Below, one piece after another: positions 1 to 34,537 of a stretch of DNA of 34,537 nt. The notes under the pieces are model-generated. The model made no database searches, was not told the origin of the DNA, and was given only the letters and a program-made list of their open reading frames with translations. Source of the DNA: Melioribacteraceae bacterium. Lineage in GTDB: Bacteria > Bacteroidota > Ignavibacteria > Ignavibacteriales > Melioribacteraceae. Each line of letters starts with the position of its first letter. Position 1 is the first letter of the stretch. The DNA lies in NCBI GenBank assembly GCA_021739765.1, contig JAIPBD010000033.1:1-34537 (forward strand), in the 5' to 3' direction. A program made the position numbers and the translations under genes.

Positions 1-109
1 AGAAGCGGTAGAAAATAGAAATTCAGAATAAGTAAATTCCATGTTCGATCTGAATTATGCACAAATGGATATTTAATTCTTAATGATGAAAATGCTGGTA
101 ATTCAAAAA

Positions 110-290
110 GTGGCAGAGCCACGACATGTTTATAGAATTGATATTAGGTTTAGGAATTGAGCTTCGTAGATGCGACATGTGGCATTTCTATTTTTTGAAA
201 ATGTTCACGTTGCCCACATATCGTTCCGATGGAACTCTGATTTTTTTCTTGCCGATTGGATCTATAAACATGTCGCTCCTACGGAACTCT
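110..290 (-). repeat. REP-like palindrome unit L1 (hairpins A, C, B)
   Basis: The unit contains GTGGC-AGA-GCCAC at 110-122, a GCTTC..GATGC imperfect palindrome near 170, GTTCCGATGGAAC near 223-236, and GCTCC-TAC-GGAAC at 274-286. The first two are preceded by CATGTC when read on the minus strand. The later ones are preceded by CATATC or CATGTC on the plus strand. The variant spacer between hairpins A and C (ggtttaggaattgag) is shared only with the unit at 1035, directly downstream of the transposase. Confidence 0.85.
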
Positions 291-370
291 ATTAATTGGG
301 AAAACTGAATATTTATTGAGCATAATTCAAAATAGAATTATTATTTAACATATTGTAAAAGATCATAACA

Positions 371-440
371 GTGGCAGAGCTGACATTTTTGTAGAATTAA
401 GATCATGATTAGAAAACGAGCTTCGTTGACGCGAAACGGG
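371..440 (-). repeat. Decayed REP-like unit
   Basis: It begins gtggcagagctgac, where the right arm of hairpin A is lost, and continues with agaaaacgagcttcgttgacgc, an altered version of the hairpin C region. The match to the intact units is clear, but neither hairpin is complete. It lies just upstream of the transposase gene. Confidence 0.6.
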
Positions 441-485
441 AAAACAATAAAATATAAACTCAACAATATTTACGAGTAGTTAATT

Positions 486-959
486 ATGGCAAATACTTAC
501 ACACAAATTTACATCCATGCTATTTTCACCGTTCAGGGTAGACTGTCTTTAATCCCCGCCAAACATAAGGTGGAATTACACAAATACATATCCGGAATAA
601 TCACCAAAAAGGGTTCAAAACTAATCCAAATCAACTCCATGCCTGATCATGTTCATCTGTTAATCGGATTAAATCCTCAAAAGTCTTTATCTGAATTGGT
701 AAAAGAGATAAAAGCTAATTCCTCAAAACACATTAATGAAAACAAATGGGTAGTAGGAAAGTTCGCTTGGCAAAAAGGATATGGTGCTTTCTCATATTCT
801 CACTCGCAGTTACAAATCATTATTAATTATATTCTCAATCAAGAAGTACATCATGCAAGGAAATCTTTTCAAGAAGAATATTTAGAATTTCTAGATAAGT
901 ATAAAATTCAATATGATCGCAAATATATATTTGATTTTTATAATGCAAATGAAGGATAA
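486..959 (+). CDS. Y1 HUH transposase, IS200-like / REP-associated (RAYT)
   Basis: A 157-residue single-domain protein, the usual size for IS200/IS605 TnpA and related RAYT enzymes. These enzymes cut and rejoin single-stranded DNA next to short hairpins, using a tyrosine nucleophile and a metal held by a His-hydrophobic-His motif. The HUH motif is H55-V-H57 in PDHVHLLI. The catalytic tyrosine is most likely Y115 in IINYILNQ, by alignment with the YIENQ segment of IS608 TnpA. The WQKGYGAFSYS segment (residues 95-105) is typical of Bacteroidota members. No TnpB partner is present. The gene stands alone between arrays of palindromes, as RAYT genes do, so domestication is as likely as an active insertion sequence. 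The Shine-Dalgarno site is weak (ACGAG). The reading frame is intact, with no sign of decay. Confidence 0.92.
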   Translation: MANTYTQIYIHAIFTVQGRLSLIPAKHKVELHKYISGIITKKGSKLIQINSMPDHVHLLIGLNPQKSLSELVKEIKANSSKHINENKWVVGKFAWQKGYGAFSYSHSQLQIIINYILNQEVHHARKSFQEEYLEFLDKYKIQYDRKYIFDFYNANEG

Positions 960-1034
960 TATACCCGTTTATTTGTGATAGCAATGACAGAAGTGCCTGG
1001 ACAATGATATGTTGGGGTAATAAAAATTAGAAAA

Positions 1035-2235
1035 GTGGCAGAGCCACGACATGTTTATAGAATTGATATTAGGTTTAGGAATTGAGCTTCGTAGATGCGA
1101 CATGTGGCATCTCAATTTTTTGAAAATGTTCACGTTGCCCACATATCGTTCCGATAGAAGTGTTTTTTTTGATTTGAAAATTGTGCACAAAAGAAAGTGG
1201 CAGAGCCACGACATGTTTATAGAATTGATATTAGTATTAGAAAACGAGCTTCGTAGATGCGACATGTGGCATTTCAATTTTTTGAAAATGTTCACGTTGC
1301 CCACATATCGTTCCGATGGAACTCTGATTTTTATCGGCTGATTCTTATTATAAACGTGCCGTTCCTACGGAACTTGGATTTTAATTTTGCTGATTGGATC
1401 TATAAACATGTCGTTCCTACGGAACTTGGGAATGTTGTTATGCACTTGGTCTATAAACATATCGCTCCGATAGAAGTGTTTTTTTTGATTTGAAAATTGT
1501 GCACAAAATAAAGTGGCAGAGCCACGACATGTTTATAGAATTAATATTAGTATTAGAAAACGAGCTTCGTAGATGCGACATGTGGCATTTCAATTTTTTG
1601 AAAATGTTCACGTTGCCCACATATCGTTCCGATAGAAGTGTTTTTTTTGATTTGAAAATTGTGCACAAAATAAAGTGGCAGAGCCACGACATGTTTATAG
1701 AATTGATATTAGTATTAGAAAACGAGCTTCGTAGATGCGACATGTGGCATCTCAATTTTTTGAAAATGTTCACGTTGCCCACATGTCGCTCCCATGGAGC
1801 TCTGATTTTTATCAGCTGATTCTTATTATAAACGTGTCGTTCCTACGGAACTTGTTTCCGTTTTTGGAATCTTGTTATGTACTTGGTCTATAAACATATC
1901 GCTCCGACAGAGGTATTTTTATGATTTGAAAATTGTGCACAAAATAAAGTGGCAGAGCCACGACATGTTTATAGAATTGATATTAGTATTAGACTACGAG
2001 CTTCGTAGATGCGACATGTGGCATCTCAATTTTTTGAAAATGTTCACGCTGCCCACATGCCGCTCCGATGGAGCTCTGATTTTTATCAGCTGATTCTTAT
2101 TATAAACGTGTCGTTCCAACGGAACTTGGAAATCTTGTTATGTACTTGGTCTATAAACATACCATTCCGCTGGAACTTGGATTATATTTTTTGTTGATTG
2201 AATCTATCAACATGTCATTACGATGGAACTTGGAA
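1035..2235. repeat. Left array of REP-like palindromes
   Basis: There are five long units, starting with GTGGC-AGA-GCCAC at about 1035, 1197, 1513, 1675 and 1949, plus extra single hairpins of the GTTCC type at 1361-1373, 1413-1425, 1839-1851 and 2113-2125. Each long unit runs hairpin A (minus), hairpin C (minus), then hairpin B (plus), over about 128 bp. Between units is a second conserved spacer, gatttgaaaattgtgcaca. The array decays at its right end: the hairpins near 2164 and 2212 have lost arm bases. Several overlapping open frames on both strands translate the repeats and are not considered genes. The region 2236-2451 is AT-rich and holds nothing recognisable except the start region of the next gene. 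Confidence 0.9.
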
Positions 2236-2451
2236 ATTTTGTTTGTGATTGGAACAATCAACATAAAAAGACGAACCATACTTTTATTTATCGTAAATGT
2301 GAATTGTAATCCAAAAAACGATTTTTCAATAAATATTATGTATGACTCACTTATTGCTGGAAATATTGTTGTATTTTGCGAAAAACAAACTATTTATAAA
2401 AAACACGACAGAATGAACTCTTGAAAATCTGAAGGGATTCATGGTGAAAAT

Positions 2452-3522
2452 ATGAACTTGGCTAATGACCTTTTTATGTTAATGTTCAGCTTAACAAAGC
2501 TGAGTTCGAAAAAACAAATACTTGATCTTTATGAAGACGCCTTACAAACTCTTCTCCAAGGCTGTAAAGTTCAATTCAGCTCTAAAACCGCTAAAGATGC
2601 TTTTGAAATAAAAACATCAAATTCTTCATTCGGATTTATAAAGATTTACAATCTCGAAAAACTCTCAAAAGACCAAATCGCGCTTGTCAAAAATTCGGTG
2701 CATATGTTGGCAATATTTCTGGAACGTATTGAATTAAACAATCGATTAAAAAAAGAAATCGAAGTATTAGACGGTCTGGCAAAGGATAGATTAGAGGTTG
2801 TCGAAAAAACAGTTCAAGAGCTAAAAAACGCCCGTACCGCCTCACTAAATTTAATTGAAGACCTCACCGAAGAAATAAGCCGACGCAAAATTTTTGAGGC
2901 TAAGCTACGCGAGAGTGAAGAACGGTATAAAACCTTATTTCAATCCGCGAGCGATTTTATCTTTTTACATGAATTCTCACAAGATAAGTCTCCGGGCAAT
3001 TTTATTGAAGTAAATGATTTAGTATTAAAACGTCTCGGTTACACTAAATCCGAAATTAAAAAACTTGGACCGACAAGTATAATCGCTGAGTCGGATTTAG
3101 AAAAAGTACCTGATGAAACTAAGGCGCTGCAACAAAATAAAAATTTGATTTTTAATAAAAATCTTGTTTGTAAAGATGGAACTTATATCCCGGTAGAAAT
3201 CAACGCTCATATTGTAGAGCGCAATAACGAATCCATCGTGATTTCGATTGGCAGGGACGTAAGCGAAAGAATAAAAGCGGAAAAGGAATTAAAGGAGAAT
3301 GAAGAACGACTTAAATTAGCGCTTCATGGCGGCGATCTTGGTTTGTGGGATTGGAACATCAAAACAAACGAAGTTATTATGAACGACAGATGGGCAAATA
3401 TGCTTGGATTTAAACTGGAAGAAATTCATTTGAGCTATGGAATTATTTGTAAACAATACAATTTGAAATTTTTCTTAGTGAAATTCAATTTTCCAATTTG
3501 CTCGGTTTTAATAAATATTTAA
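2452..3522 (+). pseudogene. Truncated GAF-PAS sensor kinase lacking its kinase core
   Basis: The 356-residue frame has a weak GAF-like region (about 1-95), a coiled coil (about 95-160), a complete PAS domain (about 160-275, ending in the usual GRDVSERIKAEKELKENEERL linker) and the first 45 residues of a second PAS_3-type domain (LGLWDWNIKTNEVIMNDRWANMLGF). After residue ~330 the homology stops and the frame runs through about 80 bases of AT-rich sequence to a stop 15 bp before the next gene. No HisKA or ATPase domain follows, so it cannot be a kinase. It is probably the remnant of a larger gene fused by deletion to the upstream region of the next gene. The ASLNLIEDLTEEISRRK linker closely resembles ATLNLVEDLSNEIEERK in the next protein. 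The start at 2452 is the only ATG after an in-frame stop at 2422. GAAGGGA lies 14 bases upstream, which is rather far. It may still be expressed as a sensor-only protein. Confidence 0.75.
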
Positions 3523-3537
3523 TAATCTGGAACTATC

Positions 3538-6500
3538 ATGAGCGAAAATAATGAATTGATGACCGCAACATTTACTAAACTTGAAAAGGTCATTGATAAG
3601 CTAATAGACTTGCCCACAGATAAATTGAAAGAAATTAAATCACTTCTTAATGAGGTTCGGTCTTATTCAAATCTAATAGAAAGAGAAAAACAAAATTTAG
3701 AATCTAAATTTCAAATTATCACCGAAATTACCTCAGATTTTACATACGAATTTGAAGTTTCCGAAGTAAATAAATTAAAACTCATATGGATTGACGGTGC
3801 TTTCCGGAAGATCACCGGATTTACGGTTGAAGAATCCGAAGCCCGGGGCGGTTTTGCTAAACTCTTTATCCCTGAAGACAGACCAATTATCGAACGAAGA
3901 AGGAATAATCTTTTCAACGGTAAAGATGATGAAAGCGAATTTCGAATCCGATGTAAAGACGGCTCAATTAAATGGCTTCGGGATTACGGTAAACCTATTT
4001 TAAAAAACGGTGAAGTTGTTGGTGTAGTAGGTGGAGCAACAGATATCACTGCTGAAAGAAAACAGGAAGAAGAATTAGAACGAAATTACGCGGCTACATT
4101 AAATTTGGTAGAAGATCTATCAAACGAAATCGAGGAACGGAAAATTGTTGAAGAAACCTTATCCGAAAGTGAAGAAAAATTTCGCTCTTTGGCTGAATCG
4201 GCGAAGGTAATAATTTCGATAATAAACGAAAACGAAGATTCTAAATACTTATATGTTAACAGGGAATGGGAAAAGATTAGCGGATACTCAAAAAACGAAA
4301 CCGATAAAATCAGACCTATTGATTTAGTTCATCCGGATATGAAACAGCAGGTAATGAACTACTCAAAAATGCGAACAAAGGGCAATAGCGCTCCAAATCA
4401 ATATGAAATGAAAGTCATTACAAAATCCGGCGAAGTTAAATGGCTCGATTTTTCATCAACGGCTATTAAGTTCGGTAAAATTCCGGCAATTCTTACTACA
4501 GCGATTGATATAACAGAAAGAAAACGGGAAGAAGCAAAAGTTAAAAAGCTTTCGGAAATAGCTGTTTACCTGGCCGCGACAACTTACAACCAAAGTATTT
4601 ATAAATATATAAGCGATACCACACACGAATTATTAGGTAATAATGGCGTCGTACTGACAACCGAGCTAAACCACAACGATCTCGAATGGCGAATAAAATC
4701 CATTGCGGGTTTGAGTAAATCGGCAGAAACAATCAGCAATATTCTCGGCGTTAATCCCGCTGAACTTAAGGGAAAAGCAACGCCTGAGATGTTAGAAAAT
4801 CTTGAGCACGGCAAAGTAAGTTTTATAGGATCTGAAATTTCTGCAAGAACATTTAATTCAATTGGGAAACGAGCCGGAGCAAAAATTCAAAAACTTTTAG
4901 GAATCGACGGTATCTATTCAATTCCGTTTAGAATCGGTCCCGATTCAACAGGCACCATTACTATTCTAAAAACGAAAAAGCTGCAAACCATCGATTACAA
5001 ACTTCTGGAAGTATTCGTTAACTACATCTCCGTCTATTTGCAAAAAGCGAGCTCCTATGCCGAAATAAAAGAGAGTGAAGCAAAATATAGAAGTTTGTTC
5101 GAGAACCAACTTGAGTCTTACGCCTATCACGAAATTATTTTAGACAAAAAAAACAAACCGGTTGATTACAGGTTTATCGATGTAAATGATAAGTTTTTAG
5201 AGCAAACCGGATTTACGAAGAAGGAAGACGCGATTGGCAAAACTGTAAGGGAATTGTGGTCTAATATCGACGATTTTTTTATCGATATATACGGTGGAGT
5301 TGCTTTAACCGGGCAGCCTAAAACTTTCGAACATTTTTCCACTCCTCTTAAAAAATATTATCGAGTAAACGCGTATTCACCCAAAAAAGGATTTTTTGCT
5401 ACAAGCTTCTTGGATATTACCGAAGCAAAACTCGCCGAGAATGAATTAAAAGAGAGTGAATATTTCGCGAATATGGTCGCTGATTCAACACCGGCGCTTT
5501 TATACATATATGATGTAGAAAAACAAAAAAATATCTGGACCAACAATAACCACAAGCAGTTTTTCCGCGAGGTTAACAGATTAACCAATGAGTTTCATTT
5601 TGATACAATCGCCGAAATTATTGATCCTGATGACTTTCAAAAAGTTATAAGTGAAACAGAAAAACTGATTAAAAATCCATCACTTCAAAATTTTAAATTG
5701 GACATTCGTGTTAAAAAAGGTAAAGACCGGATTTGGATGAATCTTATCGTTTCGCAATTCAAAATAGGAAAGGATGGATTCGTTACTCAACTGATCGGAG
5801 CAATGTTTGATATAAGTGATAGAAAAGCAGCCGAAGAAAATCTGAAAGAAAATCAACACTTGCTTTCAAACTCTCAAAAAATCGGCAATATGGGCAGTTG
5901 GGAAATTGATATTAAAACCTACAACGTAAAATGGACGGCTCAGAATTATAAGATTTTTGACTACCCCGAAGGTGAAGAGATAAGTTACGATAAATTTTTA
6001 GCCCGTGTACACCCCGATGATAAAGAATATGTAAATCAACAATGGCTCGAAGGAATAAAAACTAAAAACTATGATATTAAGCATCGTTTATTAATTAATG
6101 GAAATGTGAAATGGCTGAGGGAAAAAGCCGATTTCGAGCTTGATTCAGACGGTATTCCTACAAAAGCAATAGGTTTTACGCAAGATATTACAGAAATCAA
6201 AGTTGCCGGAGCCAAACTGAAGGAGAGTGAAACGAGAACACGCGCCATTTTCGAAAACTCGCTTTCCGGAATATTTTTGACCGATACAAAAGGAAAAATA
6301 TTGGAAGTGAATAAAGCGATGATCGATATGCTGGGTTCACCAAGCGTTGAGGAAACAAAAAAAATTAATGTGCTTAAATTTAAACCTTTGCGCGAAATCG
6401 GATATGCTCAAGCGATCGAAAACGCTATTACGACCGGGGAAATACAAAAAGGTGAAAACAAATACAAAAGTAAATGGGGCAAAGAATTTATCATTAATTA

Positions 6501-9500
6501 TTACTTCGTTCCGATAACCGATGAAAATAGAAAAACACAAAACGTGCTGGCAGTTGTTGAAGATGTTTCCGAATTAAGAACTGTACAGAAAAATCTGATT
6601 GAAAGTGAAAACCGTTTTCGGCTATTTATGAAAAACCTCCCCGCCGGTATTTCTATAAAAGATGTAAACGGCGTTTACCAATACATCAATAAGTTTACCG
6701 AAGATACTTTTGGAATTAAAAATTGGGAAGGCAAAAAAACTGAAAACTTCTTCGATAAAGAAACAACCGAGAAACTAACCGAATCCGATAAAGCTGTATT
6801 GAAAGAAAAGGTTGTTTTCCGTGAATCTAGCCTGGTGGATAAAGAAGGGAAACTCCGGCATTTTGAAACAACGCAATTCCTTATTCCAACAAAGGATAAA
6901 AATCTTATCGGGATTGTTTCACTCGATGTAACAGATAAAGTTAAAGCTGAAAAAGCAAGTTTGGAAGCCGACCAGAAACTTCGACATGTTATGCTTAACA
7001 GTACTAACATGTTTTACCAGCATGATACTGAACATCAAATCACATTCGTAAGCCCTCAGGTAAAAGATATTCTCGGATATACCCGCGAAGAAGCACTAAT
7101 AAATTGGACTAAATTGGCAAGTGATAACCCTATCAACAAAATTGGTTTCGAACACACGGTTAAAGCGATAAAAACGGGTATCGCTCAACCGACGTATCAA
7201 TTAGAACTGCTTCACAAAAACGGAATAAAAGTCTGGGTTGAAGTTCGTGAAGTTCCTGTAAAAGAAAACGGAAAAGTTACTTCTATTGTCGGATCGTTAG
7301 TTGATATAACTGAAAGCAAAGCAGCAGAGGACGCGCTGAAAGAAAGTGAAGAAAAATATAGGGCGATTTTCGAAAACTCGCAAATTGGAATATTTAGAAC
7401 CAGAATCTCAGATGGCAAATTAGTTCTCGCAAATCAAAAAATGGCCGAACTTTTTGGATACAATACCATCCAAGGAGCAGAGAGATATTACAGCACAAGT
7501 GAACATTATGTTAACCCGGATGACCGCCAAAAATTACTCGAATTGTTAAAAACAGAAGGAAAGTTCGATAACTTTATCGCTCCGCTTACCACCCGCAAAG
7601 GAGATGTTCGCTGGTTTCAATATTCGGGAAGGTTATTTGAAGCTGAAGGATATATAGAAGGTGTTGCGACCGATATTACCGAACAAATTGAATTTGAGAA
7701 TGAATTAAAAGAAAGAAAACAGTTTATTGAAACGGTTATGGATAATCTCCCGATTGGTGTCGCGCTGAATTCTATCGATAAAGGTGATGCTTTTTACATG
7801 AATCCTCAATTCGAAAATATTTATGGCTGGCCGAAAGAGGAGATAAAAGACATAGCGGATTTTTTCAACAAAGTCTACCCCGATAAAAATTATAGAGAAA
7901 AACTGATCACGCAAATAATGGCAGATATCAACAGCGGCGATCTTTCGAGGATGCATTGGGAGAAGATAGAAATAACACAAAAGAACGGTAAAAAGAGAAT
8001 TATTGACGCGGTAAATATTCCGCTTCCGGACCAAAACACTATGGTTTCTACTGTAATTGATGTTACAAATGAACATGAATTTAAAGAAGAATTAAAAAGC
8101 AGAAATGAATTCATTCAAACAATTCTCGATAATTTGCCGATCGGGATTTCCCTAAATAATAGTGGAACCAATAAAACTTTTTACACCAACCGAAAATTCG
8201 AAGAAATTTACGGATGGCCGACAGATGAAATTAATGATACCGAAAAATTCTTCACCAACATTTTCCCCGATCCGGTTTACCGAAATACGATGTTAACTAA
8301 AATATCAAATGATCTGAAACGTAAAGACAGTAAAAATTTGAGATGGGAAGAATGTTTTGTCACAACCAAGAATGGTGATAAAAAAGTTGTAAATATCGAT
8401 AATATAAAAATGGACAACCGGTCAACAATTGTCACGACAACAATTGATGTTACCGGTGAACATCAATATAGAGAAGAAGTAAATAAAAGCCGGATACGAT
8501 ATAAGGAAAAATCAGATTTCTTTAAACTGCTGGCTGATAATTCGCCCGATTTTCTGTGGGCAAAAGATCTTGAAGGGAGATATACTTTTGCCAATAAGGC
8601 TATCTGTGAAAAGTTATTAAATACAAAAAACCTCACCGAGCCGATCGGAAAAACTTATGCTTATTTTGCGGAAAAGGCGCTGAAATCCCGTAAAAGGAAA
8701 AATTGGTTTACTTTTGGTGAAAACACCGAATTCCATGATGAAGCAGTTCTCAAAAATCAAAAAACGGTTAGATTTGAATCTGATGGATTGGTAAACGGCA
8801 AATACCTTTGTGTGGATATTTCCAAAGCGCTGATTTATGACGACGATTCTAATGTGGTTGGAATTGTAGGAAGCGGTAAAGTAATTACCGAACAAAAAAT
8901 CGCTGAAAAGGAACGCGAGCTTCAGGAAATCGCCATTAAAGAATCCGAGGCAAAATTTAGAGCTACCGCCGAAGGAAGTATTGACGAATTTTACCTGTAT
9001 GAAGTCGCTTTAAATCCAAACAAAACCATTCGTGATTTTGTTCTAAAGGATACAAACAGCGCCGCCCGCGAACAGAGAATCAATCCTAAAATTTCCACAA
9101 TTAATTCGGATCTTAAACACGTGGAATTACCACAGATTTATAAAAAGATATTCCCCGATTATAAGATGGTTTTTAGGACAAAAGTTCCGTTCGAAAAGAT
9201 CTTCAGTTTCACCCTCGCAGGCGTAACAAAATGGTACAGATTGCAAACTATTCCGGTTGCAAACGGAATTGCTGTTTTCCGGAGGGAGATAACCAATTTG
9301 GTGGAATCGCAGCTTCAACTCGAAGAGTACAAAAACGAACTGCTCGAATTAAACGAATACCTTCAAACTGTTCGGGAAGAAGAAAGAGGTGCTATTTCCA
9401 GAGAGATTCACGACGATCTGGGGCAATCGCTTGCCGCGATTAAAATTGATCTGAACCGAATAATGAAGAATTTTTTAACCAATGAACCCGAGTTATATTC

Positions 9501-9987
9501 CGAAGCGAAAAGATTGGTTTCGCTTGTGGATCTCAGTATAAAATCTGTTCATAATATATGCGCTAAACTTCGGCCGGATATTCTTGATGATTTTGGGATT
9601 TCAGTCGCTATCGATTGGCTTGCTCAAGAAATGTTTACTAAAGCCGGAATAAAATACAAACTCAACTTTAAACCGCAAGATTTAGTAATTGAATCCGAAT
9701 TGCAAACCGCATTGTTTAGAATTTTCCAGGAAGCGACTACTAACATTATCAAACACGCGGAAGCGACTCTTGTAAAAATTCAGTTAATTGATTCCGATCA
9801 AAATATTACATTAAGAGTGATTGATAACGGTAAAGGCATTAAATTGCCCAAAGCTAAAAAGCAGAAGCAATTTGGTATTCTCGGAATGAAAGAACGTGTG
9901 AATGTTTTTAACGGTGAAATTAAAATTTCCGACAGAAAAAACGGCGGAACCGAAATATTTGTTCAGATTCCCAAGAAGATAAAATGA
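3538..9987 (+). CDS. Giant soluble multi-PAS/GAF histidine kinase, NarL/DegS-type core
   Basis: A 2149-residue cytoplasmic protein with no membrane segment. It has an N-terminal coiled coil (about 1-60); PAS domains at about 60-178, 213-330, 520-634, 642-770, 772-896, 899-1022, 1025-1145, 1147-1270, 1272-1393, 1395-1523, 1524-1652, 1661-1790 and 1805-1921; and a GAF domain at about 345-515. A HisKA_3 dimerisation domain follows with phospho-acceptor H1958 in SREIHDDLGQ, then an ATPase domain with the N box EATTNIIKHAE, DNGKGI and GILGMKERV. Most PAS domains end with the typical D-(I/V)-T/S linker, which should pass signals along as coiled coils. The two PAS domains at 1395-1652 are a tandem duplication. 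The HisKA_3 core predicts a NarL/FixJ partner, and exactly such a gene overlaps its stop codon (ATGA). Ligands cannot be told from the sequence. The unusual point is the number of PAS domains. Confidence 0.9.
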   Translation: MSENNELMTATFTKLEKVIDKLIDLPTDKLKEIKSLLNEVRSYSNLIEREKQNLESKFQIITEITSDFTYEFEVSEVNKLKLIWIDGAFRKITGFTVEESEARGGFAKLFIPEDRPIIERRRNNLFNGKDDESEFRIRCKDGSIKWLRDYGKPILKNGEVVGVVGGATDITAERKQEEELERNYAATLNLVEDLSNEIEERKIVEETLSESEEKFRSLAESAKVIISIINENEDSKYLYVNREWEKISGYSKNETDKIRPIDLVHPDMKQQVMNYSKMRTKGNSAPNQYEMKVITKSGEVKWLDFSSTAIKFGKIPAILTTAIDITERKREEAKVKKLSEIAVYLAATTYNQSIYKYISDTTHELLGNNGVVLTTELNHNDLEWRIKSIAGLSKSAETISNILGVNPAELKGKATPEMLENLEHGKVSFIGSEISARTFNSIGKRAGAKIQKLLGIDGIYSIPFRIGPDSTGTITILKTKKLQTIDYKLLEVFVNYISVYLQKASSYAEIKESEAKYRSLFENQLESYAYHEIILDKKNKPVDYRFIDVNDKFLEQTGFTKKEDAIGKTVRELWSNIDDFFIDIYGGVALTGQPKTFEHFSTPLKKYYRVNAYSPKKGFFATSFLDITEAKLAENELKESEYFANMVADSTPALLYIYDVEKQKNIWTNNNHKQFFREVNRLTNEFHFDTIAEIIDPDDFQKVISETEKLIKNPSLQNFKLDIRVKKGKDRIWMNLIVSQFKIGKDGFVTQLIGAMFDISDRKAAEENLKENQHLLSNSQKIGNMGSWEIDIKTYNVKWTAQNYKIFDYPEGEEISYDKFLARVHPDDKEYVNQQWLEGIKTKNYDIKHRLLINGNVKWLREKADFELDSDGIPTKAIGFTQDITEIKVAGAKLKESETRTRAIFENSLSGIFLTDTKGKILEVNKAMIDMLGSPSVEETKKINVLKFKPLREIGYAQAIENAITTGEIQKGENKYKSKWGKEFIINYYFVPITDENRKTQNVLAVVEDVSELRTVQKNLIESENRFRLFMKNLPAGISIKDVNGVYQYINKFTEDTFGIKNWEGKKTENFFDKETTEKLTESDKAVLKEKVVFRESSLVDKEGKLRHFETTQFLIPTKDKNLIGIVSLDVTDKVKAEKASLEADQKLRHVMLNSTNMFYQHDTEHQITFVSPQVKDILGYTREEALINWTKLASDNPINKIGFEHTVKAIKTGIAQPTYQLELLHKNGIKVWVEVREVPVKENGKVTSIVGSLVDITESKAAEDALKESEEKYRAIFENSQIGIFRTRISDGKLVLANQKMAELFGYNTIQGAERYYSTSEHYVNPDDRQKLLELLKTEGKFDNFIAPLTTRKGDVRWFQYSGRLFEAEGYIEGVATDITEQIEFENELKERKQFIETVMDNLPIGVALNSIDKGDAFYMNPQFENIYGWPKEEIKDIADFFNKVYPDKNYREKLITQIMADINSGDLSRMHWEKIEITQKNGKKRIIDAVNIPLPDQNTMVSTVIDVTNEHEFKEELKSRNEFIQTILDNLPIGISLNNSGTNKTFYTNRKFEEIYGWPTDEINDTEKFFTNIFPDPVYRNTMLTKISNDLKRKDSKNLRWEECFVTTKNGDKKVVNIDNIKMDNRSTIVTTTIDVTGEHQYREEVNKSRIRYKEKSDFFKLLADNSPDFLWAKDLEGRYTFANKAICEKLLNTKNLTEPIGKTYAYFAEKALKSRKRKNWFTFGENTEFHDEAVLKNQKTVRFESDGLVNGKYLCVDISKALIYDDDSNVVGIVGSGKVITEQKIAEKERELQEIAIKESEAKFRATAEGSIDEFYLYEVALNPNKTIRDFVLKDTNSAAREQRINPKISTINSDLKHVELPQIYKKIFPDYKMVFRTKVPFEKIFSFTLAGVTKWYRLQTIPVANGIAVFRREITNLVESQLQLEEYKNELLELNEYLQTVREEERGAISREIHDDLGQSLAAIKIDLNRIMKNFLTNEPELYSEAKRLVSLVDLSIKSVHNICAKLRPDILDDFGISVAIDWLAQEMFTKAGIKYKLNFKPQDLVIESELQTALFRIFQEATTNIIKHAEATLVKIQLIDSDQNITLRVIDNGKGIKLPKAKKQKQFGILGMKERVNVFNGEIKISDRKNGGTEIFVQIPKKIK

Positions 9988-10613
9988 AGATTTTATTAAT
10001 CGACGATCATTCCATTGTAAGAGAAGGATTTAAAAATATTCTTTCCGAGCAGTACGCAAATGCTATTATCGAAGAATGCGGATGCGGGAAAGAAGGTCTT
10101 TCTAAACTCGCAAGTTCATCGTATGATTTCGTTATTTTAGATATTTCTCTTCCTGATATCAGCGGAATAGAAGTTTTAAGTGAAATCCATTTACGAAAGT
10201 ATAAGTGTAAAGTAATTATACTTTCTATGCATCGTGAACAGCATTATCCTATTAAAGCATTTCAACTCGGAGCTTGCGGATATATAACCAAAGACTCTGC
10301 CGCAGAAGAATTGGGTCTGGCTTTTAATAAAATTGTTAACGGAAAAAAATACTTGTCAGAAGAAATTGCTCAAAGTATTGTTAATAACTTACACAAAGAA
10401 ACCGACAAACCACCACATCAATATTTATCGGATAGAGAAATGGAGGTATTGCTCGGTATCGCCAAAGGCAGAACCTTATTGGAAATTTCAGAAGATTTGA
10501 ACATAAGTTCCAAAACCGTAAGTACGTATCGTTCGAGAGTCCTCGAAAAAATGAAGGTAAAAAGTAATTCAGAAATAATAATTTATTGTTATAACCATTC
10601 GCTTATCAGTTAA
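9984..10613 (+). CDS. NarL/FixJ-family response regulator
   Basis: A 209-residue DNA-binding response regulator. The receiver (about 1-120) has the acidic pair D7-D8, phospho-acceptor D53 in VILDISLPD, and the conserved lysine in YITKDSA. The C-terminal LuxR-type helix-turn-helix (about 143-209) shows LSDREMEVLLGIAKG and the recognition region NISSKTVSTYRSRVLEKMKVKS. The ATG overlaps the stop codon of the giant kinase (ATGA), so the two are translationally coupled and are almost certainly cognate. It is the only recognisable DNA-binding output protein of the signalling genes in this window. The stop codon is the first base triplet of a heptanucleotide repeat. A candidate target is the repeat-containing promoter region at 12160-12240, but this is inference. 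Confidence 0.95.
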   Translation: MKILLIDDHSIVREGFKNILSEQYANAIIEECGCGKEGLSKLASSSYDFVILDISLPDISGIEVLSEIHLRKYKCKVIILSMHREQHYPIKAFQLGACGYITKDSAAEELGLAFNKIVNGKKYLSEEIAQSIVNNLHKETDKPPHQYLSDREMEVLLGIAKGRTLLEISEDLNISSKTVSTYRSRVLEKMKVKSNSEIIIYCYNHSLIS

Positions 10614-10660
10614 ACGGGAAACGGGAAACGGGAAACGGGAAACGGGAAACGGGAAACGGG
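10612..10660 (+). repeat. Seven-copy AAACGGG tandem repeat
   Basis: Seven perfect copies of the heptamer AAACGGG run without interruption from within the TAA stop codon of the NarL regulator gene. The plus strand, and so the mRNA, has seven GGG runs separated by four bases. This meets the usual G-quadruplex pattern of at least four G3 runs with loops of one to seven bases. Change of copy number would not alter the protein, because the stop codon precedes the repeat. Confidence 0.97.
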
Positions 10661-10740
10661 AAAGTTATCAGCGAAACCATTAGGAGCAAGTTAAATAATC
10701 GCGGCATTTTTTTAACCTAAACCCCTAAAATAAAAGCCGA

Positions 10741-10923
10741 GTTCCAGAGGAACGACAATTTTTAAAAATCCAATCAACAACAAAGCAAAATCCCCAAGTT
10801 CCGTAGTAGCGGCGTGTGATTAACGCAAACATTTTCACCAATTTGAGATGCCACATGTCGCATCTACGAAGCTCAATTCCTAATCCTAATAGCTATTCTA
10901 TAAACATGTCGTAGCTCCGCCAC
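10741..10923 (+). repeat. REP-like unit at the start of the right array
   Basis: It contains GTTCC-AGA-GGAAC at 10741-10753 followed by GACA, a decayed GTTCC-type site near 10798, GCATC-TAC-GAAGC at 10860-10872 preceded by CATGTC, and GTAGC-TCC-GCCAC at 10911-10923 preceded by CATGTC. The order B (minus), C (plus), A (plus) is the mirror image of the left array. Confidence 0.8.
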
Positions 10924-10929
10924 TTTTTC

Positions 10930-12032
10930 GAGTTTGATAAAAAAATTAAATAATAATTTCATATTTCATTAATTGTTCAAGTGATCTTTTTCCCAAAATC
11001 TATATCAAGTTCCGTAGGAACGACATGTTTATAGCAGCCATCAGAAACAAGCTAAAATAGAGTTCCAGCGGAACGACATGTGAACAACGCGAACATTGCC
11101 GAAAAATCATAATGCCTCATGCCGCTTCTTCGAAGCTTAATTTCTAATCCTAATAGCTATTCTATAAACATGTCGTAGCTCTGCCACTTTTTCGAGTTTG
11201 ATAAAAAAGTTAAATAATAATTTCATATTTCATTAATTGTTCAAGTGATCTTTTTCCCAAAATCTATATCAAGTTTTGTAGGAACGACATGTTTATAGCA
11301 GCCATCAGAAACAAGCTAAAATAGAGTTCCAGCGGAGCGACATGTTTATAGCAGCCATCAGAAACAAGCTAAAAAGAAGTTCCAGCGGAACGACATGTGA
11401 ACAACGCGAACATTGCCAAAAAATCATAATGCCACATGCCGCTTCTTCGAAGCTTAATTTCTAATCCTAATAGCTATTCTATAAACATGTCGTGGCTCTG
11501 CCACTTTTTCGAGTTTGATAAAAAAATTAAATAATAATTTCATATCTCATTAATTGTTCAAGTGATCTTTTTCCCAAAATCTATATCAAGTTCCGTAGGA
11601 ACTTTATGTTTATAGCAGCCATCAGAAACAAGCTAAAATAGAGTTCCAGCGGAACGACATGTGAACAACGCGAACATTGCCAAAAAATCATTATGCCACA
11701 TGCCGCTTCTTCGAATCTTAATTCCTAATCCTAATAGCTATTCTATAAACATGTCGTAGCTCTGCCACTTTTTCGAGTTTGATAAAAAAGTTAAATAATA
11801 ATTTCATATCTCATTAATTGTTCAAGTGATCTTTTTCCCAAAATCGATATCAAGTTCCGTAGGAACGATATGTTTATAGCAGCCGTCAGAAACAAGCTAA
11901 AAAGAAGTTCCAGCGGAACGACATGTGAACAACGCGAACATTGCCAAAAAATCATAATGCCACATGCCGCTTCTTCGAAGCTCAATTCCTAATCCTAATA
12001 GCTATTCTATAAACATGTCGTGGCTCCGCCAC
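10930..12032 (+). repeat. Four tandem ~264-bp direct repeats built of REP-like hairpins
   Basis: Repeats start with gagtttgataaaaaa at 10930, 11194, 11511 and 11775, giving periods of 264, 317 and 264. The longer second copy carries one extra 53-bp segment with a GTTCC hairpin (11326-11338, then again at 11379-11391). Each copy holds two or three B hairpins on the minus strand (for example 11009-11021 and 11062-11074), a C hairpin on the plus strand (GCTTC-TTC-GAAGC at 11124-11136 and 11441-11453) and an A hairpin on the plus strand (11174-11186, 11492-11504, 12020-12032). High identity between copies indicates recent duplication. Confidence 0.92.
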
Positions 12033-12158
12033 TTTATTTTAATTGCTATTCTGGAAACATGCCGTGTTTAGACAAATCTTCAACGCAACACTCAAACATT
12101 TACCGAATCCCCTCCTATCCGCAAAATTCATTTAAAATCGAATAATCTGTAAGGTTTT

Positions 12159-12238: not shown

Positions 12239-12268
12239 GAGTGCAGAGGAGTGACATATTATTAATAG
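12239..12268. repeat. Decayed GTTCC-type palindrome in the presumed 5' UTR
   Basis: The stretch gagtgcagaggagtgacat followed by attattaatag matches the right-array form gagttccagcggaacgacat followed by gtttatag with several substitutions. The stem is broken. It supports placing the start codon downstream at 12283 rather than at the GTG at 12241, which lies inside this remnant. Confidence 0.5.
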
Positions 12269-12282
12269 ATAAAGAGGTTATT

Positions 12283-12660
12283 ATGTTAAAGGTTATTATT
12301 GCGGATGATTCAGATTTATTACGTGAAAGAGTTCGTAACGCGCTAAAATCAATTCCAAATATCAGTGTAGTTGCAGAGGCACACAACACACTTGTAGCCA
12401 AAAAAGTGGTTGCCGAACATCAACCCGATTTACTAATCCTTGATATAAGAATGCCGGGCGGTTCCGGTTTAGAAGCTATCGAAAAATTAAAAGCCATTTC
12501 ACCGCGTACAAAAATTATCGTGCTTACTAATTATAACTATCCTCAATACAAGGAAAAAAGCTTTGAAGCCGGGGCGGATTATTTTTGTAGCAAATCGGAG
12601 GAGTTTGAAAGAATTTATGAAATTGCGAACGAATTGCTAAATGCTAATTCAACCGCTTAA
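12283..12660 (+). CDS. Receiver-only response regulator (NarL-type receiver, no HTH)
   Basis: A 125-residue single receiver domain. It has the acidic pair D8-D9, phospho-acceptor D54 in LLILDIRMPGGSG, and the conserved lysine in YFCSKSEEF. The VIIADDSDLLRERVRNAL start and the GAD-YF-SKS region resemble receivers of NarL/LuxR-type regulators, but no DNA-binding domain follows. The start at 12283 is chosen because AAAGAGG ends five bases upstream. A GTG at 12241 would add 14 residues, but they would be coded by a decayed palindrome and fall outside the receiver fold. It is the first gene after the candidate promoter, 68 bp before the PocR kinase, and probably takes phosphate from or competes among the neighbouring kinases. 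Confidence 0.88.
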   Translation: MLKVIIADDSDLLRERVRNALKSIPNISVVAEAHNTLVAKKVVAEHQPDLLILDIRMPGGSGLEAIEKLKAISPRTKIIVLTNYNYPQYKEKSFEAGADYFCSKSEEFERIYEIANELLNANSTA

Positions 12661-12728
12661 CTAATTTTAATTAATACTTAAGCGTAAACAGTTTCCTTGA
12701 TTATTGAAACATTGCCCGGAACAAAAAA

Positions 12729-15700
12729 ATGAAGAAAAAGCAAACTGCCGATATCAATAAAGAAGTTACCCTTTCAGGTTACAAACTATCCGATTTGATA
12801 AATGTTAAAGAGGTGAAACAACTTTTTGAACTTCACTCGAATATTGCAAATCTGCCTGTCGGGTTAATTGATAATGATGATAATATTCTGATTGGCAATG
12901 AATGGCATACGATCTGCGACAGATACCACTCCGAGAATCTAAATACCAAAAATCTCTGCAGCGAAAGTGATTGTTTTATTAAAGAAAATATCGGCACCAA
13001 AAAATCAATCAGCTGCACATGTAAACTTGGATTTACCAGCATCGGCATTCCGGTTAACGTTGCCGGGAAAAAGATGGGAATTCTATTTTTGGGCAGATTT
13101 ATTAAAAAGGACAAAAATCGACCCGCAGATTTTTTCTCCAAAATTGCAAAAAAATACAATTTCGACCCAAATGATTTTTTGGCAACCGTCGCGATTGTGC
13201 CACAATTCAATAATTCCGAAGTAAAAAAAATTCTCACTTACTATTCAAAACTTCTAAAAATAATAACGGATCAAGCTTATAAAAATATTATTCTAAATAA
13301 TGAATCCGTAAAGAACCAAAAACTCAATGAATCGTTGAACTTAAAAGACTCCCAACTTGAGCATAATAAGCATTTTCTGAAAAGCATTTTTGATGGCGCG
13401 AATATTGCAATTTTTGTTCTTAGCGTTGACGAAAATAATGACTTCCGGTTCGAAGGTTTAAATAAAGCCCACGAAAAAATGTCCGGATTGAAAAGTAAAA
13501 ATGTTGAAGGTAAAAAACCCGAAGAGCTAACAGACCTTCCACCGGATGCCCGAAAAGCTGTTAAAGCAAATTACACCAGATGTTTAAATGCAGGCAAACC
13601 AATTCAGTATAAAGAAATTATAACGATACTTGGGAAAAAGACTCATTGGTTAACAACGCTTACACCCATTAAAAATTCTTTGGGACGAATTTACAGAAAA
13701 ATCGGTACCGCTACTTTGATTGAGGAATTAGTAAATGCCCAGAATGAATTAGAATCCCACAAAAAAAATCTTGAAGCAAAAATTGAGGAACGAACTCAAG
13801 AATTGGTCGAAAGCCAGGAAAGATACACTCTGATACACGAAGCCACAAATCAGGGTATTTGGGATTGGAATACCGTAACCGATGAAATTTATTATTCACA
13901 TACATGGAAAAAACAGATCGGCTATAAAGACAACGAGTTAAAAAATGAATTCGAAACTTGGGCAAATCACCTTCACCCGGATGACAAGGAAAATTCCTTT
14001 AAGATATTGGAGGATTACCTTCAAAATCCCAAAGGTAAATTTATTGTCGAATTTAGGTTTAAGCATAAAAAAGGACATTACGTTTGGATTCATAACGAGG
14101 CTGCTTCAATAAAGGATAAATCCGGTAAAGTTCTTCGAATGTTTGGCGCGCACACCGATATCACACAAGAAAAAGAAGCACAGGAAAAGTTAAAAGAGAG
14201 CGAAAAAAAATTCCACAATCTTTACGACTTTTCACCCGATATGTATGTTTCGGTTTCCCCTACAAGCTCTAATATTTTAGAATGCAACCAAACTCTTCTC
14301 TCGGCAACCGGATATACCAGAGACGAAGTAATCGGAATGCCGATTTTTAATATGTACGCCGATTATGTTCTTCCAAAAGTTGAAGCGGCTTTTAATGAGT
14401 TTGTTGAAACCGGAGAAGTAAAAAACAAAGAACTGGTGCTTAAACGAAAAGACGGTTCCTTTATTGACGTAAGTTTAAACGTAACCTCAATCAAAGATGA
14501 AAACGGAAATGTAAAATACAGCATGTCTTCATGGCGGGATATCACAGCTAAAAAAATAGATGAACTTAGAATATTACAAGAGAAAGAATTTTCTGATGCC
14601 GTAATTAACGCGATGCCCGGCGTTTTTTACTTGTTCGATCAAAATGGCAAATTTGTTAAATGGAATAAACAACTTTCACAACTTTCCGGAATTGATTTTG
14701 ATGAAATTGGCAATAAATCACCAATTGATTTTATTGTACCTGAAGATCATCAGAAAATTCTTGATGCGATACTAAAGGCTTTTACAGATGGTTTTGTTTT
14801 AGTTGAAGCTGACTTCCTCTCCAAAGAACATGGAAGCATTCCATTCTTATTCACAGGATCGAGAATCTTGTTAAATAACGAATACCTCCTGCTTGGAGTC
14901 GGATTAGATATTTCGAAACGGAAAATGGTAGAAAATGAGTTGATCGATAGCCGGCGAAGATTATCCCGCGCGATCGATGATTCGCCCTACCCGATAATGA
15001 TCCACGCTGAAGGCGGCGAAGTGATTCAGATCAGTAATTCGTGGACCGCGTTGACCGGATACACGATAGAAGATATTCCGAGTATAGAAACTTGGTCAGC
15101 CAAAGCTTATGGAATTCGGAAAGAAACTATAAAAGAAAGAATAGATTCATTATACACTTTGGATGAGAAAATCTCCGAAGGCGAATTTGAAATTAAGTGC
15201 AAAAACGGAGAAAAAATCGTCTGGGAATTCAGCTCCTCGCCAATTGGCAGCCTCCCCGACAACAGAAAACTTGTAATGAGTATTGGAAATGACATCACCC
15301 AAAAGAAAATAATTGAAGAAAAATTGGCAAAAGAAAGAGCCCAATATCTTTCCTTATTTGATGGAATTGATGATATAATCTACGTTGCCGACCCCGAGAA
15401 TTATGATTTGCTTTATGTAAATGAGGCTTTTACAAAAAATTGGGACGGAGAAATCAAAAACCGGAAATGTTTTGAAGTACTTCAAGGAAAAGATGAACCT
15501 TGCGATTTTTGTACAAATGATAAAATATTAGGCGAAAATTTTGGAAAGACCTATGTATGGGAATTCCAAAACCAAGTAAACGGAACATGGTATCGTTGCG
15601 CCGATAAAGGTATAACATGGGATGACGGCAGAAAAGTCCGGTTTGAATTAGCTTCTGATATTACAAATCTAAAAAATCTTGAAAAAGAGAAGGAACAGGC

Positions 15701-18170: not shown

Positions 18171-18203
18171 ATGATTTTTGAACAGTTTATAAATGGGAAA
18201 AAG

Positions 18204-21200: not shown

Positions 21201-21455
21201 GAAATTAGTTACGAGGAACTGGAATCTGAACATCATTTCTTAGTTGAAGATAATGGAATTGGAATCGCGCCGGAATTTCAGAGCAGGATCTTTGAAATAT
21301 TCGAGCGTCTCCATACAAAGGATAAATTTGAAGGCACCGGCATCGGATTAGCGGTATGTAAAAAAATTGTGGAAAGACACGGCGGTAAAATCTGGGTGGA
21401 ATCAGAATTAGAGAACGGATCAATTTTTCATTTTACTATTTCAAAAAATTTATGA
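18204..21455 (+). CDS. Membrane-bound Cache-like/PAS histidine kinase
   Basis: A membrane kinase of 1083 residues from the preferred start. An ATG at 18171 adds 11 residues and directly follows the previous stop codon, but the ATG at 18204 has GGGAAA just before it. Numbering from 18171: membrane helix about 28-49, an extracytoplasmic region of about 255 residues resembling a double-Cache sensor (ITTPNGELILSLS, YDLTAPILDRNNEVLAIMLF, PGTPWYMVTKVDETEIY), and membrane helix about 308-333. PAS domains follow at about 358-480, 487-605, 615-735 and 742-857. HisKA has H884 in [20 protein letters not shown], and the ATPase domain has DNGIGIAPEFQ and GTGIGLAVCKKIVERHGG. The third and fourth PAS domains are close relatives of two in the preceding kinase. 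Its stop overlaps the next start by four bases, so it belongs to one operon with its neighbours. Confidence 0.9.
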   Translation: MTDSDKKIPEKINKWNLVLLATLLVAVIVTGGWFYYNYQASIIKENKHQEIKAISELKLDQIIYWQNERKSDIKVVSNLLSIIKSVELWQATKSDNALANIVDYLESVKETYNYHDILITTPNGELILSLSPEEKSSLAIPHSTIKESAETKNIVFSPLYIHEEKNEIHYDLTAPILDRNNEVLAIMLFRMLPEDYLYPLIHSWPTSDKSAETLIARQESDGVLFLNELRHKKNTTLKLHLPLSRMELPIVQAAKGYRGVWEGKDYRGVEVLSYVSDIPGTPWYMVTKVDETEIYAELNFLAVVVSLFTLFLLILTGAGFAGIYSSRQKNVFKALFLKEKEYSENLEEFRTILYSIGDAVITTDINGRVRELNPRAEKLTGWKKEEAIGENHNVVFRLIDEKTRESLGDPFRMAMAEGKPIDSAKNTALIAKDGVEIPISERAAPINNLDGENIGVVFVFRDQTEERKTQAAILLNEERYRGLFHSIADAILVANTDREIIDCNKGFEKLFGYSKSEILGTKTSRLYHSQEEFEKMGAELKQHSFDEPFLYPIKYIDKSGKVFVGETSVYFIKDEQNQTAGIVGIVRDISDKLEKEVKLAESEKKFRNLFNSVSIPLSYVKSDGTIESLNNRFVEVLGYTLNDMPVIDRWWELAYPDKNYREWVMRNWSEAVQKSIEEGTDIKSDIYNVRCKNGVIKNFIVAGVTIESDVLTTFIDVTEQKAAEKKLVEENEFTESVINSMPGIFYLFNQQGKFIKWNNTLADLSGIPFKDVAQKSPLEIIAPHHREIIQNAIETVFAEGEVFVEADFLAFGRENIPFYFTGIRIIRNGEPLLLGVGIDISKRKKALEELKKVAAELKRSNQELEQFAYVASHDLQEPLRMVSSYTQLLAKRYSDKLDRDAKDFIGFAVDGASRMQTLIQDLLQFSRVTTKGKPFAKVDFEDVVQQALLNLKNVVETSNAIVIKFNMPFVIGDFGQLVRLVQNLIGNSIKYIHNVTPEIEISYEELESEHHFLVEDNGIGIAPEFQSRIFEIFERLHTKDKFEGTGIGLAVCKKIVERHGGKIWVESELENGSIFHFTISKNL

Positions 21456-25623: not shown

Positions 25624-25625
25624 AA

Positions 25626-26075: not shown

Positions 26076-26118
26076 TGTAGTTAATTCGAATTAATCACAA
26101 ATGGGAAAGGAGCGACAA

Positions 26119-26565: not shown

Positions 26566-26589
26566 AAATTTAATTTAAGGATTCTTTGA

Positions 26590-26853: not shown

Positions 26854-26868
26854 TTATGAGAAGATCAA

Positions 26869-34170: not shown

Positions 34171-34537
34171 ACCTAAATAACGCTAGATATTAGTATAATA
34201 TTCAATTCTATCGCGAAAGTAGAAATTACAGTTATCGTAGAACAATGTTCGTCAATTTTCAAACAGTTTTTTCCGCATCGTTTTAGATTTTTTTAATTTT
34301 CCATTAATCAATATTATATGTTCACCTAAGTCCAGAGGAACGGCATGTGGGCGGCACAAACATTGTCCAAATTTTCACATCCCACACGCCGCTTCTATGA
34401 AGCTCGTTTTCCAATTCTAATACTAATTCTATAAATATGTCGTGGCTCTGCCACTTTTTGTTTTTGTGCTACATGTAATTTGTAGCATAACAATTCGATT
34501 TTGAATTTTGCTCAATAACCATTCAGTTTAATCAATT
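34171..34537. other. Gene-free right edge
   Basis: This stretch holds the start region of the minus-strand FMN-binding gene (34171-34300) and, from 34330, one palindrome unit of the same type as in the arrays. Beyond 34455 the sequence is AT-rich with nothing recognised. Confidence 0.6.
34330..34454 (+). repeat. Single REP-like palindrome unit
   Basis: It contains an imperfect GTCC-AGA-GGAAC at 34330-34341 followed by GGCATGTGGGC, GCTTC-TAT-GAAGC at 34391-34403 preceded by CACGCC, and GTGGC-TCT-GCCAC at 34442-34454 preceded by ATATGTC and followed by TTTTTG. The order and orientation are those of the right array. It shows that the repeats are dispersed singly as well as in arrays. Confidence 0.85.

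Follow-up and report, generated by a model that had tools for sequence, protein, structure and literature searches.

We interrogated a 34,537-nt stretch of DNA from Melioribacteraceae bacterium (contig JAIPBD010000033.1 of assembly GCA_021739765.1), in which short hairpins preceded by CATGTC lie close to P0001, a transposase gene of the Y1 (HUH) type. This stretch, called the window below, is the entire contig C9 of a 4.54-Mb genome in 37 contigs. We propose that the window probably contains clusters of a composite repeat resembling repetitive extragenic palindromes (REPs), along with one copy of the enzyme likely to act on it. The hairpins, which have a 5-bp stem and a 3-nt loop (5-3-5), are the arms of this single repeat.

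With at least four of five Watson-Crick pairs required, the window contains 27 exact CATGTC-preceded 5-3-5 hairpins, whereas 200 first-order Markov simulations gave 0.16 on average; the hairpins described in the original prediction for this DNA are thus real. CATGTCG occurs 29 times, compared with a mean of 2.45 and a maximum of 8 in 100 dinucleotide shuffles. Genome-wide, the pattern CATGTCGNNNCNNNGNNNC is found 43 times, 27 of them inside the window, and the reversed pattern once. The hairpins form two clusters, at 106-2233 and 10737-12036, with repeat units 162-317 bp apart visible in both and a final copy at about 34.4 kb. The earlier range, 110 to 12032, was correct at its ends, where hairpins lie at 110-128 and 12014-12032, whereas the copy at 34383-34458 falls outside it. 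A wider list was drawn from stretches 1-2300, 10700-12100 and beyond 34300, with at most one flank mismatch, at least four of five pairs, G-T counting as a pair, and C as the fifth stem base, the remaining rows being discarded. It holds 39 hairpins, with stems GTTCC (12), GTGGC (9), GCATC (7), GCTCC (4), GCTTC (4) and GTAGC (3); GCATC-TAC-GAAGC, with one mismatch, is thus a further stem type of the window. An Rfam search of the window gave zero matches.

The stems had been read as three different hairpin families. There are more than three, and they occupy fixed positions in one composite repeat, with one consensus across genomes. Each side of the repeat is an arm, a pair of outward-facing hairpins about 50 nt apart (51-53 nt on the contigs of this genome), and two arms make a four-hairpin quad of about 150-190 bp (about 185 bp in the window). 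The common order on contigs L024, L025 and L026 is an outer GTTCC hairpin, an inner GTTCC or GCTCC hairpin, a few tens of nt, an inner GCTTC or GCATC hairpin, and an outer GTGGC or GTAGC hairpin. Because the three contigs share this order within one repeat, the three-family reading was dropped. Outer hairpins are mostly preceded by CTATAAACATGTC and inner ones mostly by CACATGYC or CACATRTC, and the repeat lies in opposite orientations in the left and right window clusters. R1, a covariance model built from 26 arms of other genomes, matches 24 arms in the window (E<0.02) and 20 on six stretches of other contigs, 19 of them at E<1e-4. Across the window's genome it finds 42 arms at E<=0.01, many of them away from the gene.

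The transposase had been placed at 486-959, and an open reading frame of 157 aa on the + strand (486..959) indeed matches PF01797 at 1.5e-26. P0001 has the HUH residues H55/H57, a catalytic Y115 and the motif YILNQEVHH. It passes the NF033573 model for the TnpA protein of IS200/IS605 (subclass 1.1) insertion sequences (76.5 bits, cut-off 55), and scores 41.6 bits with NF047646, the model for REP-associated tyrosine transposases (RAYTs), under its cut-off of 80. Its sequence profile matches the TnpA structures 2xm3 (7.8e-14), which we take to be ISDra2, and ISHp608 2a6m (2.9e-10). All three motifs of TnpAY1 subclass 1.2 (Y---Q--HH, DH[IV]H and WQ) are present in P0001, and Y---Q--HH, the signature of this subclass (Quentin 2018, PMC6006769), is found in 69 of 70 loci from the same family. 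Kin within Ignavibacteria include two loci with the same protein, L043 in a genome of the same family and L171 in 'Ignavibacteriae bacterium HGW-Ignavibacteriae-3'. In the window's assembly, this transposase group is represented by one intact gene, yet there are several stem types. The other two matches to P0001 in the assembly are 36% and 32% identical and both broken, and an R1 search of the stretches around them (L028, L029) found no arms.

We then looked at hairpins beside related transposase genes. P0001 has matches in 64 of 80 genomes of the same family, where a gap separates a close group (45-60% identity) from the rest. With thresholds set after the data had been seen, the close group was defined by at least 130 bits in the family set and by a profile E of at most 2e-50 in the phylum set; 70 of the family matches were examined, leaving aside a few fragments of close-group genes located at contig ends. 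The 38 close-group genes examined include that of the window. Perfect 5-3-5 hairpins, counted when each arm had three or more G/C, reach 5.6 per kb within 250 bp of them compared with 0.5 per kb beyond 700 bp, an 11-fold difference. At least two hairpins lie within 250 bp of 32 of these 38 genes, versus 8 of 32 more distant ones. In a tree of 68 proteins, a supported branch splits 48 rows, 37 with at least two hairpins, from 20 rows, 2 with at least two; none of the 18 rows of a lineage on the latter side (SHSLxKIW and kin) has two or more. The trait changes at least nine times on this tree and is therefore not confined to one clean clade.

The arrangement extends beyond the family. We examined 80 named homologues, the best 80 of at least 583 confirmed matches, whose hosts belong to Bacteroidota, Verrucomicrobiota, Poribacteria, Cloacimonadota, Desulfonema and others. 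Hairpins reach 7.42 per kb within 200 bp of these genes against a background of 0.77 per kb, and 68 of the 80 have at least two within 250 bp. Their usual places are about 20 and 70 nt upstream and about 6 and 57 nt downstream, the inner hairpins often being 0-25 nt from the start or stop codon. Locus L124, from Flavobacterium segetis DSM 19741, is one that carries two hairpins on either side of the gene. Enrichment is highest for a 5-bp stem with a 3-nt loop (9.7-fold), followed by the 5-4 (4.7), 6-3 (4.4) and 7-3 (2.5) geometries; stems of 8 bp are not enriched beside these genes. Among 100 same-side hairpin pairs less than 120 nt apart, 55 are spaced 47-53 nt.

For a test that ignores pairing, sites were chosen by an outward-facing CTAYAAA motif alone, within 200 bp of 118 genes. 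There are 77 outward sites, in 56 loci, and 34 inward ones. A perfect 5-3-5 stem stands exactly 13 nt past the motif at 46 of the 77 outward sites, and the other sixteen offsets together give 1; at CTAYAAA sites 600-1400 bp from the genes, a stem is present at 8 of 32. This test replaced a covariation count (on A2) that was not used because its arms had been preselected for perfect stems and would covary by construction. Constant geometry with varying stems, as noted in the original prediction, is thus tied to this transposase group.

Arms also occur at a distance from any such gene. Gene-free quads, seen as inverted arm pairs, are scattered for example in the genomes G099 (L201, L203, L210) and G101 (L214-L216), and G075 and G009 have at least 60 arm matches each. 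In the family, R1 finds arms in 58 of 80 genomes: all 32 with a close transposase and 26 of the 48 without (p=1.2e-6), with medians of 11.5 and 1 arms per genome. In a phylum sample of 158 genomes at least 95% complete, arms are present in 42 of 43 genomes with a close transposase versus 18 of 115 without; G122, whose gene contains a stop and falls just outside the close cut-off (profile 1.7e-49), carries no arms. Co-occurrence of hairpins and transposase, which the original prediction had proposed to test, holds for nearly all genomes with the gene and fails as a strict rule for those without.

The hairpins of one element resemble each other in specific bases. We write F-n for the flank base n positions 5' of the stem, S and L for stem and loop positions, and give as expected the sharing from chance pairing of loci. 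Across genomes the 5-3-5 consensus is G/A-C-N-C-C / TAC / G-G-N-G-C/T, and CATGTC, taken earlier as a constant tag, gives way elsewhere to flanks such as ATTTC, ATGCC and AGGTC. Of 20 elements that have both arms, 1 carries a single stem type on its four hairpins, 9 carry two different stems, another 9 carry three and 1 carries four. F-4 and S1 are the most shared positions within an element in all comparisons (about 0.9-1.0 vs about 0.5-0.7 expected), followed by F-6, F-5 and L2. In 82 arms, the inner hairpin was compared with the outer one, two hairpins of like orientation that are unable to pair together; sharing is 0.95 vs 0.64 expected at F-4, 0.57 vs 0.26 at F-6, 0.90 vs 0.52 at S1 and 0.72 vs 0.39 at L2. 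F-3 shows no sharing within the element, and the middle stem pair S3 is not shared between the outer hairpins of opposite ends (0.40 vs 0.38). Conversely, F-9 and F-10 are shared between those outer hairpins (0.95 vs 0.53 and 0.75 vs 0.40) and show no clear sharing between the two hairpins within an arm (p 0.06 and 0.10). This sharing favours recognition by flank plus shape, as originally suggested, with the correction that CATGTC itself is not the constant flank. The flank may be held both by a protein that reads it and by inverted-repeat pairing, the stems needing to match only themselves.

The autonomous form of the element would consist of an outer hairpin, about 50 nt, an inner hairpin, the Y1 transposase gene, and then an inner hairpin, about 50 nt and an outer hairpin, with the two sides facing outward. 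A gene-free quad would retain all four hairpins around a spacer of a few tens of nt instead of the gene, like a miniature inverted-repeat transposable element (MITE) or a doubled REPIN (a hairpin-forming pair of REPs). As single strands, the arms have the sequence potential to fold into 5-bp stem/3-nt loop hairpins. The HUH transposase would bind these through their geometry, their loop and closing C-G pair, the first stem pair and a few flank bases, chiefly the one at -4; the bases shared within an element suggest that the middle of the stem is read less. By homology with IS200/IS605 and TnpAREP, the enzyme would cut near the element ends via Y115, and the quad would be moved or copied as a single strand. 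Stems could then drift by paired changes, since each need match only itself, with the flank bases held by the enzyme and, in outer flanks, perhaps also by end pairing. By eye, nothing obviously shared is seen just outside the outer hairpins of the G101 and G099 quads, and the element ends may therefore lie there. A guide/cleavage-site model as in TnpAREP was set aside and no cleavage site is claimed, because no conserved dinucleotide stands out in the 50 nt beyond the outer hairpins.

Two transposase residues are candidate readers of the shared bases. Residue 42 is Arg in all 15 elements that have G at -4, in 2 of the 70 that have T and in 2 of the 5 that have A, while Asn or Lys at residue 77 is found in 24 of 34 elements with an A-started stem and 1 of 55 with a G-started stem. 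From 61 elements we predicted that G at -4 goes with Arg42 and an A-started stem with Asn/Lys77. Among 40 further loci, 34 were usable (the other 6 have no hairpin): Arg42 is present in 5 of 6 of the G type, the sixth being a G/A tie, and in 0 of 28 others. Residue 77 is Asn or Lys at 10 of 15 loci with A-started stems and at 1 of 19 with G-started ones. The window fits, with K42 and A77 beside T at -4 and G-started stems. What weighs against such a code is the tree: it has 3 well-supported independent pairs that differ at -4 (2 agree, 1 shows no residue difference, 0 are opposed) and 11 that differ at the first stem base (2 agree, 9 show no residue-77 difference). With few independent changes at -4, and with most of those at the first stem base leaving residue 77 unchanged, we treat the residue-to-base code as a lead that shared descent could also explain. 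More broadly, we consider it a reasonable possibility, though one we do not yet favour, that these elements form a widespread class of four-hairpin single-strand transposons, whose enzyme reads a per-element signature on all four hairpins that co-evolves with the protein and leaves the rest of the stem nearly free. The candidate signature would consist chiefly of the base at -4 and the first stem pair; positions -6, -5 and the second loop base would contribute as well, and residues 42 and 77 would be its possible readers.

We considered whether the outer flanks might be constant only through left-right inverted-repeat pairing, with no protein reader and the quad a palindrome moved or amplified by host processes. 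Quad folds are predicted with the CTATAAA flanks paired (L215, z -8.59, with end-to-end flank pairing and the outer hairpins at the base; window quad at 11850..12036, z -2.20), and the sharing of F-9 and F-10 between opposite outer hairpins, not clearly within an arm, points the same way. Yet F-4, F-5, F-6, S1 and L2 are shared within single arms too, whose hairpins cannot pair together, and the hairpin places around the gene are regular; we find this explanation rather unlikely. That the hairpins regulate the transposase gene, as autorepression sites or terminators duplicated locally, and are not the ends of a mobile element, is quite improbable. Although most window copies are clustered and inner hairpins often lie near the start or stop codon, both sides share one outward-facing anatomy, and gene-free quads are dispersed in G099 and G101, with high arm numbers also in G075 and G009.

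The original prediction had also raised several related enzymes, here taken as one per stem type. Some family genomes (for example G002, G043, G054, G055 and G061) do have more than one close-group gene, and contig breaks could hide a gene in the window's genome. However, with a single intact gene in the assembly, two broken and armless paralogues within the stretches examined, and at least two different stems in 19 of the 20 single elements with both arms, we see only a slim chance for this account. Chance, or plain tandem duplication of one hairpin with no functional link to the transposase, would suit the 162-317 bp spacing of units in both clusters, but is vanishingly improbable given 27 observed hairpins against 0.16 expected and an arrangement that recurs around homologous genes in several phyla.

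Several observations weigh against our preferred reading of a REP-like composite repeat with its enzyme. What the enzyme does to the hairpins, namely binding, cutting and mobility, and the role of the flank in this, we infer from sequence. The refuting case named beforehand, hairpins in genomes without a transposase of this group, occurs: besides the 18 of 115 phylum genomes noted above, G001 for example has 9 arms, G006 9 and G045 18, and both G001 and G045 are 99%-complete drafts. The hairpins therefore need no resident enzyme, and these orphan arms could be relics or reflect gene loss. At 40 further close homologues from the phylum sample, under a stricter rule (within about 170 nt), 34 have at least one hairpin, 23 at least two and 6 none. 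The window transposase itself has a decayed two-hairpin arm upstream (367..440, -; R1 17.8 bits, E 0.0078) and none downstream, R1 matching no + arm between 960 and 1030; another, lost copy may therefore have made the local quads. As 30-nt single-stranded DNA, GTGGC is the sole stem with a predicted fold clearly better than shuffles (z -2.79), compared with GTTCC (z -1.30), GCTTC (z -0.94) and GCATC, for which the predicted fold lacks the hairpin; for three of the four window stem types, many shuffles are thus predicted to fold at least as well. S3 shows weak sharing, both within arms (0.60 vs 0.41) and among inner hairpins (0.70 vs 0.52), F-1, F-2, F-5, F-7, L3 and S2 also exceed expectation within one arm, as common descent would give, and F-5 between outer (p 0.09) and F-6 between inner hairpins (p 0.06) are below significance. 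Relatedness among genomes and loci makes all p values overstate independence, and the training arms of R1 came from beside such transposase genes.

The repeat and its transposase combine features of known systems. Like a REPtron, in which a RAYT (TnpAREP) gene is bracketed by inverted short palindromes (PMC2817692; PMC6006769; Corneloup 2021, PMC8266576), the element has a Y1 HUH gene between inverted hairpins. Such bracketing is seen at the 32 of 38 and 68 of 80 genes above, the window's own copy keeping only its decayed upstream arm. Gene-free copies elsewhere, a short 5' tag and paired changes that keep the palindrome recall REPs, bacterial interspersed mosaic elements (BIMEs) and REPINs, and REPs of 5 bp, equal in stem length to the window hairpins, are known too (Marinomonas Mb). 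Unlike REPtrons, the elements have no general GTAG/GTGG tag: the majority flank in 84 arms is A-T/G-N-T/C-C, and at least one outer flank (L136, downstream) happens to read GTAG. They also differ in that each side typically has a pair of hairpins spaced about 50 nt, and in stems that vary inside one element. P0001 is without the NP motif that follows the catalytic Tyr in RAYTs (Nunvar 2010, PMC2817692), in addition to its NF047646 score below cut-off, and the 42 arms in the window's genome are fewer than the more than 100 copies usual for REPs (PMC2817692).

P0001 resembles TnpAY1 subclass 1.2 (PMC6006769) in its three motifs, short protein and low copy number, and the subclass has Bacteroidetes among its hosts. 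That subclass is tabulated there with REP 'no'. The automatic REP search of that study required GTAG/GTGG together with a basal stem 7 to 20 nt long, and would miss the present hairpins because their stems are 5 bp. In contrast to the published description, the lineage of the window protein is mostly hairpin-flanked, and its sister lineage (SHSLxKIW and kin) is not. The enzyme family and probable chemistry are those of IS200/IS605 elements such as IS608 and ISDra2 (PMC6006769), in which a hairpin is recognised on single-stranded DNA together with a guide on the 5' side of its foot. Unlike them, these elements have inverted hairpin pairs, two per side, and near-identical whole-element copies were not found in this 37-contig assembly with its one intact gene. 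CGTC-tagged REPs (Di Nocera 2013, PMC3733652) have a tag that can read TGTC and hosts that include Bacteroidetes and Chlorobi; they differ in their 8-9 bp stems, 4-5 nt loops and reported lack of association with transposase genes, whereas window-type hairpins have a 5-bp stem and 3-nt loop and stand beside transposase genes. No paper tying hairpins to subclass 1.2 was found in the open-licence library searched, and subscription papers or ISfinder may hold one.

If our reading is true, a transposase subclass described as REP-less would gain a clear candidate substrate in many Bacteroidota and some neighbouring phyla, and a dispersed repeat of these genomes would be explained. The natural range of stems and flanks would let one ask which bases an HUH enzyme reads in a folded strand and, should the residue-to-base link hold, hairpin specificity would become predictable from sequence.

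The left window cluster contains complete quads at 106..291 (arm 106-181, -, GTGGC/GCATC; arm 215-291, +, GTTCC/GCTCC; R1 45.0 and 46.4 bits), 1193..1377 (1193-1268, -, and 1302-1377, +; 45.1 and 49.5 bits), 1671..1855 (1671-1746, -, and 1780-1855, +; 46.2 and 59.1 bits) and 1945..2129 (1945-2020, -, and 2054-2129, +; 44.9 and 52.9 bits). Extra + arms lie beside the second (1405-1474, 31.9 bits) and, weakly, the fourth of these (2156-2233, 20.2 bits). Two GTGGC/GCATC arms on the - strand, at 1031..1106 (45.0 bits) and 1509..1584 (47.9 bits), have half-decayed partners with 3 of 5 pairs at 1142 and 1620, respectively. The right cluster contains complete quads at 11005..11191 (orientation opposite to the left cluster; 50.2 and 47.9 bits), 11586..11772 (11586-11663, -, and 11697-11772, +; 43.7 and 36.1 bits) and 11850..12036 (11850-11927, -, and 11961-12036, +; 48.9 and 53.4 bits). 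At 11269..11508, a quad (11269-11346, -, and 11433-11508, +; 33.4 and 54.4 bits) encloses an extra hairpin from the pattern search (11379-11397, -), and a GCATC/GTAGC arm at 10852..10927 (+, 41.0 bits) has a decayed left partner at 10737-10805 (-, 16.4 bits). Near the right contig end, an arm at 34383..34458 (+, 49.2 bits) has a weak partner at 34303-34349 (-, 12.1 bits, E 0.27).

The assembly breaks beside the quad repeats: contigs C9, C13 and C15 each stop no more than about 1.3 kb from a quad, and copies may therefore be undercounted. The end of contig C2 (L024 2721-2788) is, by eye, letter-identical to window positions 1-68; C2 therefore probably adjoins C9, with another quad just left of the window. 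In G101 (L217 304-472), two arms face inward instead of outward, and the arm, not the quad, may therefore be the rearranged unit.

Another repeat, about 130 bp long and starting near TGTCATGGTCATA, is seen in L025 at 1640-1770 and 1980-2110. A search of the window's own genome with a C13 quad and its surroundings showed that quads on C13 and C15 adjoin copies of this separate repeat, which also occurs alone. Its spaced arrays, at G000:C33:31747-37595 (with open reading frames between), C1:325578-327112, C15:119594-121766 and C6:384920-385377, look cassette-like; an integron reading was rejected, no integron integrase scoring above the TIGR02249 cut-off. In the window, a large sensory block lies between and beside the hairpin clusters (2452-10613 and 12241-27987), with PAS-rich histidine kinases of 2149, 1813 and 1094 aa, more kinases and several response regulators. 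Directly after the response regulator gene that precedes the right cluster comes a run of AAACGGG heptamers (10612-10663). Besides its quads, G099 carries a short palindrome, TCCCCGTCGGGGA, and a repeated piece containing CAGACTGCGTCTG and CCCTCAATGAGGG (L200, L205, L211, L212).

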